Assembly: GCA_030068145.1 (NCBI GenBank) | Contig: JAPJBO010000884.1 | Span: 30,416 to 94,415, forward strand | Direction: 5' to 3' | Origin: Diplonema papillatum | Lineage: Eukaryota; Euglenozoa; Diplonemea; Diplonemida; Diplonemidae | DNA length: 64,000 nucleotides | Part shown: positions 55,274 through 64,000 of the stretch, one piece after another | How the letters are laid out: every line of letters starts with the position of its first letter | How positions within the stretch are numbered: position 1 is the first letter of the stretch | Program-made: the position numbers and the translations under genes | Notes under the pieces: model-generated | What the model saw: the letters and a program-made list of their open reading frames with translations, nothing else | What the model was told of the DNA's origin: nothing | Database searches by the model: none

Positions 55274-55734
55274 ATACTACTACTACTACTACTACTACTA
55301 CTACTACTACTACTACTACTACTACTACTACTACTACTACTACTACTACTACTACTACTACTACTACTACTACTACTACTACTACTACTACTACTACTAC
55401 TACTACTACTACTACTACTACTACTACTACTACTACTACTACTACTACTACTACTACTACTACTACTACTACTACTACTACTACTACTACTACTACTACT
55501 ACTACTACTACTACTACTACTACTACTACTACTACTACTACTACTACTACTACTACTACTACTACTACTACTACTACTACTACTACTACTACTACTACTA
55601 CTACTACTACTACTACTACTACTACTACTACTACTACTACTACTACTACTACTACTACTACTACTACTACTACTACTACTACTACTACTACTACTACTAC
55701 TACTACTACTACTACTACTACTACTACTACTACT
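55274..55734. repeat. (TAC)n array 1, about 153 units
   Basis: Uninterrupted TAC trinucleotide. Poly-Tyr, poly-Leu and poly-Ser frames through it are artefacts. It abuts the left end of an RT element. Confidence 0.99.
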
Positions 55735-58700
55735 GTGGTTTACCGTGGGAATTGGAGCAAAGCGCATGGCAGGATGAGCACCCACCCAAACCAACACCAG
55801 AAGAGTTTTGGGAGGAGGCGGGGTTTCAAGTAGACAGTCACTCTGGCAAAACTAAAAGACCCAGCAGGATCAAAGAATGTCAGTCACACCTTCCTCTTTC
55901 TTTTTTCTCTACCTCCTTTTTCGGTAAAGCACACGAACACCCACGACACGAGAAAACACGCGACACGCTTCCCTTTTCTCTTTTTTCGCTGATGTCGGGA
56001 TGAGAGACCGGAGGACGAGCGATGTGTGGCGGGACCTCGGGTGCGGTCAGCGCGCCGAGGACGTGATCCTCGAGCTCCAGCTCGAGTATGTTGTTCCGGG
56101 GCACGCGTTCGGGTCCGACTGCGTGTGCGCGTTGGAGAGTCGGTTCGAGCCCTTGCGGGAGTGGCTCTACGTCGCAGAGTCGCTCGAGGGGTGGCGTGGT
56201 CGCCGTCAGTTCGTGTCGTTGGGAGAGCTGTTGCTGCGGGAACTGCGCATCGAGTTCGTGTGCGCCCGCGAGGGGTTCTCGCGGAAGGAGTTCCAGATGC
56301 AATTGCAGCTGGAGAGCGAGGACGCGCTGGACAGGGCGGCGGCTGGGCTCTGGTGGGAGCGCCGCCAGTCGGTCAGCGGGGCACCGCCTTCCGAGGAGAG
56401 GCCGCGCAGGCGGAGGAGGCGTATCCCTCCCGCGGTTCGGCGCCGTCGCAAGCGCGACCAGGGCGAAGCGGTGACGCCTCCGCGGCAGCCCGACCTTACG
56501 AACGCTCCCCTCCTCCCTCCCCGACCAACCGACAACCAGTCAACCAACCCCACGGGAATGGTCATTGACGAACACCAGCGAGGCACTGCCTCTTCGTCTG
56601 ACACCCGTGCCACAGCCCGCACTTCCCCGAATGCAGGGGGACCCTTAGCGCAGCGACTCAGCGCGGATTCAGGTTCGCAGAGCGACGCAGCGCGAGGCCC
56701 CGCAGGCGCAACGACCTGCGGTTACGCGGCGCATGACATCGGCCACAGCGGTGGTGTTGGGTGTGACAACTCATGCCCCGATGCGCAGCGACCCGGTCCG
56801 GTTGGCGATTTCCCGTCAGGGGAACACGTAGCGTGCTCAGACGGTACGCTGCGACCCGGCCCGGAAGAGGACCTTTTGGGGGCGAGAAGTTTCGCGGTGG
56901 GTGAGTGGAGTCCTGCCCTCGGGATGGCACCCAGGGTGGTAGATGGGCTAGGCCCTTTTTCGCTGCCAACCCCTGTGCAACCAGGGATGGCACCGCTAGG
57001 TGTCACGGGGTTCGCCCCTTCTATTTTTGGTATGTGGGAGGCCGGCGCTCCTTTTAATTCTTCCCTGAATGCTTTGAATGTGCCGGCCTTTGCAGGAGGA
57101 GCGCCTTCTCCAGGGGGGTTTTTCCCCATGACTTCCGCGCTTCAGAGCGTTCCGGAGTACAGGGTGGCAGATCTGCTGCCCGCCGAAGAGTTACCCGCTC
57201 CGCCAGCCGTGCCCGCCTCTGGGTTTGCAGCATTGCCGCCGCACGTAGGGGATGATCTGGCTCCGCTGAGCGACGTTGTGGGCCGTCGGGTCCACGGCTT
57301 TACCCGACGTGCGCATAACACGCGTCTTCCACAGTCGCAGGCGGAAAAGGAGGCACCTCTCCACGTGGCGGCGGTGCCGGCCATGGACACGGAGGCGCTC
57401 CGGCTCAGGATGAAACCTGACGTACGCGTCAGATTTGACTCGGTCTGGAACGCCACGTTTTCCCCCGTTCGTGGCGCGAAAGAAGGAAACTCTTCCGAGG
57501 GCCAGCAGAGGAGGAGTCACCTCATGCACTCCCACGCGTCTGAGCTCGTCAGGCTTGGCATCGCGTCGCCTTCCGACACGCCGGGTACTTTCCGCAACGT
57601 GCCTTTTACGGTTGTGGAAGACAAGGCGGGCCGCCTGCGCCAACGGTTCATTCTGTGGACGCAGGAGGCTAACGACTTGCTGAGCCGCCAAGGCTACGTG
57701 GCTCAGGTACCATTGGGCCACGTCTCCGGGTATCTCGACGTAGTCGAGTCCGAGTGCGCCACAACGCGTGATTTGCGTTGTGGCTTTTATCAAGTCGAAG
57801 TCCCGGAGGAGGCTCGAAAGAACTTCGGTTTCCTCGATGAACAAGGCAATGCCTACGTCCTAAATAGGCTGCCGATGGGACACTCGTGTGCACCAGAGCT
57901 GATGCACACGCTAACAGCAACGTTAGCAAGTCACCCAGACTTCGTTGGGCCTGAATTCACGGCCGACGGGGTAACAGTCCATGCCTGGGTGGACAACATT
58001 CGTATAAGTGGGTCCCGTGCCGCAGTGCTCTGCCAGACCGAGGAACTTGATCGGCTGGCCGCACGGGTCCATGCTTCTTGGAAGCCCGAGGATAGCAACG
58101 ACGCTTCCTCGGGCTACGATTTTATAGGGGTCACTTTTGACCACGGTCGGAAGACCGTCTCTCCTGCGGCTCGTCTGATCGAAAAGATCCGGGCCGTGGA
58201 TTTGTCTAGCCCCACCGCCGGCGATTTAGAATCGCTCGGCGGTCGCCTGCTCCATGCGAGCGCAGTCGTGAACGCGTTCCCCGGCTCGTTCTGGTTCGCC
58301 GTCAAGTTCTTGCGACGGATAACGAACGGCCTCAACAAGGGGACCCGCACCCAATCAGAGACTGTGCTTGTGCCGGCCTCCGTACGGAGAGATTTGCGAT
58401 CGTGGGTTGATTCTGTCGATGTGAACAGAAGGTTCACGCGTCCGTCCACGAACCGTCCGTACGCGGTCTACGTGGACGCTTCCTTGCTGGGGTGGGGCGC
58501 TGTCCTGGTTGACCGGCAGACAGCAGAGCTGACCGTGTTGGGTGGCACATGGACCGAGCAGGAAGCTCGGCACCACATCAACACGCTAGAAGCACTGGCT
58601 CTGAAGAGAGCCGTGGATGCGCTACCCCCGTCAGTATTAGGTAGCGCAGTCGACGTTCATGTCGACAACACTACCGTAGTCGGGGTGGCACGAAAGAAGA

Positions 58701-59222
58701 ACTGCATGCTGAACAAATCATTGAATGACGCAGTTGTGCACGCGTTGACTCGACTACGGGATTTGAAATGTTCCTGGTCCATCTCGTGGATCAGCACGAA
58801 GGAGAACCCGGCCGATGTCCCTTCAAGAGTCGCCCTTGCTGCTGACGCCTCGGAAGAGGATCGACAGCGACTTGTACTTGCGGTGAGGGCATTCTTTACT
58901 CGCGGGGGGGCAGGTGGCGTGACGTCGTCCCAGCGGCGATCATAGCTTGCCTCATGGTCGGTGTTCTTCCCCTTCGTTTGTTCTTTATGTGAGTTCCATC
59001 CTGACTGGTTTTTCACCGTTCTCTTTCGATTGGAGTGGCCAGGGCGAAACGGGACGATCCCGTCAAGTGGGAGAGACCCACAACGAAACAGATCCGAGCA
59101 AGCGGAAAAAAGAGCCCAGGCCGAGGGAGGGAGGGTGTGCTGCCAGAGAAACGCCAGACAACGACTGCAGCTCCCGCCTCAGAACGAGGGCGATGATGCC
59201 AGAAGAAGCCAGCCACAACTCC
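55735..59222 (+). mobile_element. RT element 1 between TAC arrays, no recombinase seen
   Basis: Occupies exactly the interval between two TAC arrays. Its left terminus (TTTACCGTGGGAATTGGAGC, then AAAGCGCATGGCAGGATGAGC) resembles that of element 2 (59303), and its right terminus (GCCAGCCACAACTCC before TAC) resembles that of element 2 (GCTAGCTGCCAATTCC before CTAC). A 265-bp leader contains the dispersed GATCAAAGAATGTCAGTC word. Only one long ORF is present. No repeat of the left terminus is found in the 275 bp after it, so split direct repeats are absent or lost. Confidence 0.75.
56000..58945 (+). CDS. Polyprotein with reverse transcriptase and RNase H (element 1)
   Basis: 981 codons, ATG at 56000, TAG at 58943. 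Residues 1-150 are a gag-like or unknown region ending in a very Arg-rich patch (RPRRRRRR). Residues 160-440 are low-complexity Gly/Pro/Ala-rich. The RT domain lies at about 450-720, with ATTRDLRCGFYQVEV (first catalytic Asp), LNRLPMGHSCAPELMHTL and HAWVDNIRISG. The second position of the usual DD pair is Asn. The RNase H domain (about 810-950) retains all four acids: YVDASLLGWGA, INTLEALAL, VHVDNTTVVG and NPADVPSRV. The fused RT-RH and the LPMGHS block resemble those of DIRS-superclass elements (Ngaro/VIPER type), an assignment by motif only. The ORF is intact, so the copy may be young. No integrase or tyrosine recombinase is encoded. Confidence 0.85.
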   Translation: MRDRRTSDVWRDLGCGQRAEDVILELQLEYVVPGHAFGSDCVCALESRFEPLREWLYVAESLEGWRGRRQFVSLGELLLRELRIEFVCAREGFSRKEFQMQLQLESEDALDRAAAGLWWERRQSVSGAPPSEERPRRRRRRIPPAVRRRRKRDQGEAVTPPRQPDLTNAPLLPPRPTDNQSTNPTGMVIDEHQRGTASSSDTRATARTSPNAGGPLAQRLSADSGSQSDAARGPAGATTCGYAAHDIGHSGGVGCDNSCPDAQRPGPVGDFPSGEHVACSDGTLRPGPEEDLLGARSFAVGEWSPALGMAPRVVDGLGPFSLPTPVQPGMAPLGVTGFAPSIFGMWEAGAPFNSSLNALNVPAFAGGAPSPGGFFPMTSALQSVPEYRVADLLPAEELPAPPAVPASGFAALPPHVGDDLAPLSDVVGRRVHGFTRRAHNTRLPQSQAEKEAPLHVAAVPAMDTEALRLRMKPDVRVRFDSVWNATFSPVRGAKEGNSSEGQQRRSHLMHSHASELVRLGIASPSDTPGTFRNVPFTVVEDKAGRLRQRFILWTQEANDLLSRQGYVAQVPLGHVSGYLDVVESECATTRDLRCGFYQVEVPEEARKNFGFLDEQGNAYVLNRLPMGHSCAPELMHTLTATLASHPDFVGPEFTADGVTVHAWVDNIRISGSRAAVLCQTEELDRLAARVHASWKPEDSNDASSGYDFIGVTFDHGRKTVSPAARLIEKIRAVDLSSPTAGDLESLGGRLLHASAVVNAFPGSFWFAVKFLRRITNGLNKGTRTQSETVLVPASVRRDLRSWVDSVDVNRRFTRPSTNRPYAVYVDASLLGWGAVLVDRQTAELTVLGGTWTEQEARHHINTLEALALKRAVDALPPSVLGSAVDVHVDNTTVVGVARKKNCMLNKSLNDAVVHALTRLRDLKCSWSISWISTKENPADVPSRVALAADASEEDRQRLVLAVRAFFTRGGAGGVTSSQRRS

Positions 59223-63662: not shown

Positions 63663-63682
63663 CCGCCCTCCCTTGCCCCCAG

Positions 63683-63902
63683 TGTGATCTCGCCTGGTTG
63701 GCCCATTGACATGGTCAACAGGCACACTCTATCCCATTCGCTAGTTGCAAGTTATCAAGGTTCTGTCTGACTTCTCTTTCCTCCCCTTTCCGATGATGAA
63801 TACTCCGGATGGCGTAGGTAGCCAAGCCCACCCTGAGTACAATGACCGAAGACCTAAGCCGAGACCGAGTGCGATGAGGCCAGAAGCTAGCTGCCAATTC
63901 CT
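63683..63902 (+). repeat. Split direct repeat B2 (right end of element 2)
   Basis: Second copy of B1, separated from A2 by a 20-bp C-rich spacer, and running straight into the third TAC array. Confidence 0.95.
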
Positions 63903-64000
63903 ACTACTACTACTACTACTACTACTACTACTACTACTACTACTACTACTACTACTACTACTACTACTACTACTACTACTACTACTACTACTACTACTAT
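63901..64000. repeat. (TAC)n array 3, truncated by the window end
   Basis: Pure CTA/TAC repeat to the right edge of the window, except for the final base. Confidence 0.97.

Follow-up and report, generated by a model that had tools for sequence, protein, structure and literature searches.

The (TAC)n tract described here, in a 64,000-nt window of Diplonema papillatum DNA (contig C884, 30416-94415), forms the 3′ tail of a retroposon, either an APE-type LINE or one of its short derivatives. Our preferred reading, to which we assign a probability of about 0.8, is that a LINE-derived tail was entered by two retrotransposons of the VIPER/TATE/Ngaro style, with a TACT-reading recombinase and renewable LINE tails accounting for the organization of the window. 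All features of the window given below lie on the forward strand.

Three (TAC)n tracts interleaved with two retroelements, with lengths of 460, about 81 and at least 96 bp, were recovered both by TRF and by a strict pattern, in agreement with the first-pass annotation. The first tract (55275..55734; TRF period-3 array 55275-55734 with 153.3 copies and 100% match; TAC x153 at 55275-55733) is the (TAC)n tail that served as target for element 1; the second (59223..59303; TAC x27; TRF period-3 array 59218-59304, 29 copies, 97%) lies between the elements; and the third (63902..63999; TAC x32 at 63902-63997; TRF period-3 array 63901-63999, 33 copies, 100%) ends with the 94415-nt contig, which stops inside the tract and makes its size a lower bound. 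Just three TAC/GTA runs of at least 3 units (3, 5 and 3 units) occur in the rest of the window, and therefore a chance origin of the long tracts is ruled out. As had also been described, the termini of both elements directly adjoin TAC at base resolution when the sequence is read at each junction: (TAC)n|TGTGG... at the left and ...ACTCC|(TAC)n at the right of element 1, and (TAC)n|TTTAG... and ...AATTCC|(TAC)n, respectively, for element 2. It is possible that a single original tract was struck twice, by elements 1 and 2.

The first tract starts immediately after the conserved 3′ end of a short non-autonomous LINE-derived retroposon of about 390 bp (54885..55274), ending in GACACA before the TAC tail, a relationship missed in the first-pass annotation. 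Copies of this retroposon in at least five other loci align from window position 54885/54886 onward, its 3′ end is that of other tailed copies, and the 5′ part of a LINE in C37 matches it at 85%. Among the sampled loci, 19 of 21 distinct tract starts (those not preceded by an element 3′ end) directly follow the ...CACA of two conserved retroposon ends. Tailed copies show 5′ truncation, and in 5/5 copies checked the target duplications, starting at the tail end, enclose the retroposon body and its tail; one duplication, TAGTACCAATCC, spans about 7 kb and encloses a retroposon with its tail as well as nested copies of element 2. Furthermore, pieces of an APE endonuclease (6.9e-05, below the curated cut-off) and of an RT (6.5e-08) were detected 5′ of a (TAC)264 tail. 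Besides these two domains, the tailed retroposon shows the truncated 5′ ends, the duplicated target and the simple-repeat tail expected of an APE-type LINE. A LINE ORF is located beside the tail in the L095/L059 region, and none was seen by eye upstream of three tails (L062-L064). No tRNA genes were found in four loci with tailed retroposons, and Rfam returned one match, far below the gathering score, in three such loci, providing no support for a Pol III SINE origin. Uninterrupted element-free tails bracketed by target duplications, and thus available as targets, were found at L040, L042, L045 and L055. The earlier proposal of a self-renewing safe site is changed accordingly: the microsatellite being the 3′ tail of LINE-type retroposons, the site would be renewed by another transposon.

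Element 2 (59304..63901) displays the layout A1-ORF1-ORF2-RT/RNase H-B1-A2-B2. The 121-nt repeat A1 (59303..59423) is identical to A2 (63542..63662), and the 220-nt repeat B1 (63324..63543) is identical to B2 (63683..63902), which ends in ...AATTCC|TAC, so that split direct repeats A1...B1-A2-B2 are present; 359-bp A-B units also occur in the genome. The internal B1/A2 junction, AATTCC-T-...-GGAACTGG (63537..63564), with inverted arms recognized by eye, contains no TAC. ORF1 (363 aa, 59344..60435) is gag-like by position, with no match in Pfam, NCBIfam or PHROGs, and is followed by ORF2 (398 aa, 60463..61659), tyrosine-recombinase-like by motif, and by an RT/RNase H region (61665..63328) that in the window copy occupies two reading frames, that of ORF 60432-62258 and then ORF 62051-63328. 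The gene order is accordingly gag-like, recombinase, RT/RNase H, with the gag assigned by position and the recombinase by motif. No methyltransferase domain was found with Pfam in four scanned ORFs, the two-frame RT region being scanned in pieces.

Tyrosine recombinases share the catalytic pattern R...H-x-x-R...Y. When compared by eye with this pattern, ORF2 presents R242 (R242-W-G-E), a box II reading H331-S-I-K-R where the usual form is H-x-x-R, an L-G-K-H motif, and Y378. The protein had no profile or PDB sequence match (Pfam, NCBIfam, PHROGs, PDB), its single-sequence structure model has a mean pLDDT of 38, and viral contigs queried with ORF2 yielded no confirmed relative. Comparison of ORF2 with the L028 copy gave a dN of 0.010 and a dS of 0.097; the RT compared with that of L005 gave a dN of 0.029 and a dS of 0.022, with no purifying selection in a stretch that may include a frame change. 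On the motif and the genetics, ORF2 is taken to encode a putative tyrosine recombinase.

Element 1 (55734..59222) is a retroelement that encodes RT/RNase H and lacks a recombinase ORF. Its copy in the window has no A2-B2; in other copies of this element the A1-A2 spacing is 3491. Its 981-aa ORF (56000..58945) comprises an ORF1-like N-terminal part (32% over 123 aa in comparison with ORF1 of element 2), an RT region and RNase H (Pfam RT_RNaseH 2.2e-07; RVT_1 0.2, below the cut-off), and the RT/RNase H of both elements are 46% identical. Genome contigs scanned with an element 1 RT stretch gave no confirmed relative. The recombinase-like ORF is found in element 2 only, and the order gag-like, recombinase, RT/RNase H is absent from element 1. 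A 28-mer near the 5′ end (55754..55781), with 330 exact places genome-wide, is common to both elements. Because end sequences and target are shared by the two, element 1 probably uses the putative recombinase encoded by element 2; having an RT and lacking a recombinase, it constitutes a natural split of copying from integration.

Genome-wide, TACT directly precedes 164 of the 193 external 5′ ends that remain when 82 internal junctions are subtracted from 275 places. At least 3 TAC units precede only about half of the 193: TACTACTACT stands before 102 places matched by a slightly shortened 5′ pattern. At the opposite side, 111/444 3′ ends run into TAC x3 (up to 3 mismatches, internal junctions counted in), and the expectation that more than 90 percent of copies carry TAC on both sides consequently fails. 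Among the sampled loci, TACT is found at the left of 16/19 copies outside clean tracts, with variable right flanks, and targeting restricted to microsatellites is rejected, as copies also reside in non-TAC DNA at single TACT sites. The first-pass annotation had proposed a tyrosine recombinase recognizing a short TAC-like core to account for both the target choice and the lack of target duplications; the core is borne out as TACT by the census of external 5′ ends, and the recombinase assignment comes from motif and genetics, with no profile match. The converse idea, that TAC is an integral part of the element terminus, does not hold: TAC is absent from 82 internal B1/A2 junctions in the genome, tails occur free of elements, and tracts start at retroposon 3′ ends. 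The reported lack of target duplication was confirmed at one locus with empty paralogous sites (L091), with neither duplication nor loss; here, the junction is crossed by 42/44 matches of a joined-flank query (87-91%), and the four retrieved ones align without a gap. For 7/8 joined-flank queries, no empty site across the junction was found. The junction base at L091 is C in the four empty sites and T in the occupied copy, which leaves some doubt about the base originally targeted.

With these observations, we propose that a LINE-derived retroposon of about 390 bp would deposit a long (TAC)n tail, and that the retrotransposon RNA would be copied to a double-stranded DNA circle with the B/A junction ...AATTCC-T-TTAG..., a junction also found inside integrated elements. 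The putative ORF2 recombinase would then pair the circle junction with TACT and exchange strands near the common CT, an activity that would yield the products observed, ...TACT|TTAG at the left and ...AATTCCT|N at the right, without duplication. The target would be specified in its left half only, which would make a (TAC)n tail a run of good sites and leave a single TACT elsewhere also usable, and element 1, without a recombinase ORF, would rely on the enzyme of element 2. As judged from the anatomy of the loci, each new LINE copy would provide a new tail, and the landing pad would thereby be renewed by another transposon: a two-transposon economy in which a retroposon builds a simple-repeat landing pad and a retrotransposon uses it away from genes.

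By a rough estimate, the tracts represent a few percent of TACT sites, yet roughly half the external 5′ ends of elements 1 and 2 lie in them, and this crowding is not explained by TACT alone. One explanation is that insertion at TACT is near-random and that copies in tails or arrays merely survive as harmless; presumably old copies in ordinary DNA, each at a lone TACT, fit this proposal, and retroposon tails are plausible neutral ground. We regard it as unlikely, since copies have persisted in ordinary DNA as well and the tracts are only a small share of the estimated TACT sites, and survival would therefore have to differ strongly. Far less probable is that the elements themselves seed the tracts, either by slippage from the TACT at their left end, which most copies outside tracts possess as a possible seed, or by carrying TAC; this is contradicted by the element-free tails with target duplications, as well as by internal junctions without TAC and by tracts that start at retroposon 3′ ends.

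The strongest competitor to a TACT-reading recombinase arises from two related families (C9, C20; ORF2 54-55% identical), which were found in minisatellites of unrelated sequence without TAC. TRF called a tandem array in 8/11 of their readable flanks, the other 3/11 being called by eye and 5/16 stretches being unreadable; the control of random stretches gave 29/400 (70 bp), 29/400 (80 bp) and 44/400 (340 bp), and was taken from a single window, 22.7% of which is tandem repeat. At C15 and C20, the array continues on the far side of the element. One repeat unit is common to C1188 and C2671, and another to C870 and C883, and the minisatellite flanks are thus not all independent. As related families occupy unrelated minisatellites, the target may in part be tandem repetition as such, which suggests tandem arrays as a landing ground for recombinase-type retrotransposons. 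Taken further, the recombinase clade would recognize the arrays themselves, whether through their repeat structure, their chromatin or circles derived from them, and TACT would be only a secondary preference of some families. The excess of arrays over random stretches, their resumption past the element and the crowding of external 5′ ends in tracts argue for this explanation; the small, partly shared and partly unreadable sample, the single-window control and the entry of elements 1 and 2 into single TACT sites argue against it, and we consider it less likely than not. Slightly more doubtful is its general form, namely a clade whose families enter unrelated micro- and minisatellites by recognizing tandem repetition, with LINE-made TAC tails as one target, a renewable one, and telomere-repeat TATE as a special case. 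If the array preference is true, these elements would offer a handle on the recognition of repeats, as opposed to sequence, by a recombinase, telomere-dwelling TATE would join a wider habit, and tandem arrays would be transposon hubs.

Insertion into simple repeats with repeat-joined element arrays, as observed here, is described for the Mutator-like SaTar (PMC5907723) and MuTAnT (PMC4486113), which differ in being DNA transposons with another chemistry and, as summarized in their abstracts, no LINE tail involved. Simple-repeat 3′ ends and abundant short derivatives are likewise shared with microsatellite-spreading RTE LINEs (PMC2887409) and Ectocarpus RTE-X non-autonomous elements (PMC12477816); the available portions of these two papers describe no landing-pad role for recombinase retrotransposons. 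PAT-like and DIRS1-like elements are also recombinase retrotransposons, PAT with split direct repeats (PMC4157794). Both are defined by a methyltransferase domain, for which our four scanned ORFs gave no match, and DIRS1-like elements carry inverted repeats, in contrast to the elements of this study (PMC4157794). Ngaro elements of Cafeteria virophages share with ours an A1-ORFs-B1A2B2 arrangement of split direct repeats, the occurrence of solo A-B units, family-specific target preference and nesting in another mobile element (PMC8547959). Split direct repeats together with scanned ORFs that lack a methyltransferase match are likewise the Ngaro combination. However, their ORF2 is the RT/RNase H and their ORF3 a recombinase with a Pfam match and HxxR (PMC8547959), whereas the recombinase-like ORF found here precedes the RT and is without a Pfam match. 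In its accessible part, that paper defines no core by sequence. Searches of PMC3212892 and PMC3783388 gave no target rule relevant here.

In the VIPER/TATE elements of kinetoplastids, a gag-like gene is followed by a recombinase and RT/RNase H, the direct repeats are split (A1...B1-A2-B2) and the target is not duplicated (PMC6681497, PMC12278014). Element 2 is similar in gene order, repeats and, at one locus, lack of duplication, a likeness of layout. Their short A2-B2 derivative SIRE (PMC6681497, PMC12278014) is comparable to our 359-bp A-B units. Distinct from VIPER/TATE are the targets (LINE TAC tails, single TACT sites and, in related families, minisatellites) and an element 1 without recombinase. 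Within the literature covered, we found no report of recombinase retrotransposons in LINE tails or minisatellites; the nearest published case is TATE, which resides inside telomeric hexamer repeats, themselves a tandem array (PMC6681497).

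As the first-pass annotation had claimed, three TAC tracts (55275..55734, 59223..59303 and 63902..63999) alternate with two retroelements, element 1 (55734..59222) and element 2 (59304..63901), and these positions were confirmed in the sequence. Outside the tracts, a strict pattern recovered only three TAC/GTA runs in the window, of three to five units. The assembly searched has 2910 contigs totalling 271 Mb. The one carrying the window stops where the window does, so that whatever flanks the third tract on the right lies beyond the sequence.

Element 2 displays the split-direct-repeat plan A1-ORFs-B1-A2-B2, with identical copies of repeat A (121 nt; 59303-59423 and 63542-63662) and of repeat B (220 nt; 63324-63543 and 63683-63902). 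It encodes ORF1 (363 aa; no match in a Pfam scan), ORF2 (398 aa) and an RT/RNase H region split over two frames in the window copy. In the relevant passages of PMC6681497 and PMC12278014, VIPER/TATE elements are described as ordered gag-like, recombinase and RT/RNase H, with split direct repeats A1...B1-A2-B2 and without target duplications, SIRE being a short A2-B2 form and TATE occupying a fixed position within telomeric hexamers. Cafeteria Ngaro elements, as portrayed in part of PMC8547959, carry the recombinase last, form solo A-B units and have targets differing by family. By layout, element 2 works like a VIPER/TATE element (group definitions from the part of PMC4157794 consulted). Units of 359 bp (A-B without interior) occur singly or head-to-tail via a B/A junction at loci L008, L011, L012, L016 and L090, and also on contig C34 at 139.6-146.9 kb (L056-L058, L084-L088); such units and tandem runs parallel SIRE and the solo Ngaro repeats.

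Element 1 contains a single 981-aa ORF with RNase H (2.2e-07) and an RT region (RVT_1 just 0.2), whose N-terminal part shares 32% identity over 123 aa with ORF1 of element 2; the RT/RNase H regions of both elements are 46% identical, their 3' ends resemble each other, and a 28-mer near the 5' end is common to both (330 places in the genome). A recombinase ORF is absent from element 1, and A2-B2 is missing in its window copy. Since 5' repeats are paired at a 3491-base spacing in four loci (C11, C38, C146 and C165), matching within 2 bases the length from 28-mer to 3' end in the window element 1, the recombinase-less state looks like a family trait, the C11 copy being the only one read, in part.

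ORF2 carries the motifs R242-W-G-E, H331-S-I-K-R, L-G-K-H and Y378, which we take to be tyrosine recombinase boxes. Searches against Pfam, NCBIfam, PHROGs and PDB sequences gave no meaningful match, and a single-sequence structure model had a mean pLDDT of 38. Judged from substitution rates, ORF2 is conserved at the protein level (dN 0.010 and dS 0.097 versus L028; for residues 130-398, dN 0.015 and dS 0.140 versus L020); the RT stretch, which may span a frame change, lacked a comparable signal (dN 0.029, dS 0.022 versus L005). At least 105 ORF2 matches were found in the genome, divided about equally between a group of 91-100% identity and one of 54-55%.

Searched with a degenerate pattern that covers 5' ends of either family, the genome gave 275 exact places, of which 82 were preceded by TTCCT and correspond to the internal B1/A2 junction, leaving 193 external ends. 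The proposal that a recombinase reads a short TAC-like core largely held, as TACT precedes 164 of these and is absent from the other 29. Conversely, strict microsatellite-only insertion fails: the 38 distinct 5' ends in the loci read comprised 9 junction-like ones, 10 with at least three TAC units and 19 with fewer. TACT was kept in 16 of these 19 (L068 carries additional bases ahead of the end); the remaining three read TTCT, TGCT and TACA. Genome-wide, three or more TAC units stand at roughly half of external 5' ends, an approximate fraction given that a pattern shortened at its 3' end, after TACTACTACT, is looser (102 places). On the opposite side, 111 of 444 element 2-type 3' ends enter TAC x3 (up to 3 mismatches; internal junctions included), and right flanks of non-tract copies diverge after AATTCCT. 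Joined flanks of eight non-tract copies served as genome queries. Of 44 matches in all, 42 spanned the L091 flank junction at 87-91% identity; the four examples fetched aligned without gaps, with C at the junction base and T in the occupied copy. The two remaining matches covered part of L009 (query 53-120 and 54-120), barely crossing the junction, and no empty site across the junction was found for seven of the eight queries.

TACT sites number about 1.43 million genome-wide (scaled up from the window), and the 351 tracts, with a mean length of 76 units, account for about 27,000 of them; short TAC runs may contribute as many again, as estimated from the three in the window. By this estimate, tracts represent a few percent of TACT sites yet about half of insertions. 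Something besides TACT favours tracts, or survival within them.

Nine TAC units preceded by a non-C base are present at 351 positions in the genome, against 72 for the reversed pattern. Within 30 loci read, 21 distinct tracts were not preceded by an element 3' end, and 19 started directly behind the ...CACA end of one or other of two conserved, mutually related sequences; L034 started after a shortened form and L037 after something else. The window's first tract, too, follows this conserved sequence. Similarity upstream of the tails ends at varying distances (about 100 to 528 bp), and a 5' start at 54885-54886 is common to at least five other loci. In five copies, DNA 5' of the retroposon is repeated after the tail, with exact duplications of 10, 27, 10, 10 and 12 bp at L040, L042, L045, L055 and L056 with L058; 0, 0, 1, 3 and 0 of 200 shuffles, respectively, matched these lengths. 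The 12-bp duplication encloses about 7 kb, made up of the retroposon, its tail and nested copies of element 2. On C37, an RT piece (6.5e-08) and an APE endonuclease piece (6.9e-05, below the curated cut-off) lie upstream of a (TAC)264 tail. Because of the ...CACA starts, the variable upstream extent, the duplications around body and tail and the C37 pieces, the TAC tract is the tail found at the 3' end of an APE-type LINE and of short elements derived from it, one of which, 390 bp long, lies in the window. RTE elements have been described as seeding microsatellites (part of PMC2887409). Directly behind five TAC tails (L038, L048, L060, L041 and L044) lies similar sequence (TGTATAAGCACCTGC... 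or A..AGCGCCAGCTTG...), which may be another tail-using element or a common insertion target.

The more interesting lead comes from related families, which were read in tandem arrays of unrelated sequence. Among elements with 54-55% identical ORF2, (TAC)n 5' flanks were found in C42 and C341, C67 and C253, and C177, representing three terminal types, and a further element (RT 67% identical) lies within TAC in L031. Two related recombinase families named after contigs C20 and C9 had tandem flanks in 5 of 8 and 6 of 8 stretches: C20, C193 and C329 with the end in view and C1188 and C2671 with it just outside (C1123, C718 and C762 unreadable); and C9, C15, C30, C870 and C883 with the end in view and C213 without (C659 and C59 unreadable). 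Instead of TAC, these arrays are minisatellites whose units are unlike in sequence and whose periods range from 11 to about 100 bp, one unit being common to C1188 and C2671 and another to C870 and C883. TRF called 8 of the 11 readable flanks, C30, C870 and C883 (fewer than two units) being called by eye; random stretches were called at 29/400 (70 bp), 29/400 (80 bp) and 44/400 (340 bp), in a control drawn from the window with its 22.7% tandem repeat (1-55274, TRF; several long minisatellites among it). On C15, a 22-bp unit breaks off before the element and continues beyond, and on C20 a unit unique to that site (60/60 places) stops before and resumes after it, the array showing further gaps that resemble other insertions. 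A 5' motif like AGTTTAC...GGGAA is common to the types, with AATTCC opposite at the 3' ends that were read; compared by eye, these could be recombinase arms. On C1188 and C2671, two related recombinase families share one array.

Elsewhere in the window, a 679-aa ORF (39198-41237, minus strand), whose RNase H-like domain is matched by RVT_3 (3e-11) and RNase_H (4.5e-06), is probably another retroelement, and 21030-22880 holds a single-ORF, 616-aa methylenetetrahydrofolate reductase (MTHFR) with its regulatory domain. A 417-bp piece of eukaryotic 28S rRNA (model 1909-2343) lies at 32577-32993; the roughly 280 Mb genome of Diplonema papillatum is described, in part of PMC10161547, as having about 3600 pieces of 28S dispersed through it, together with TATE-like ORFs.
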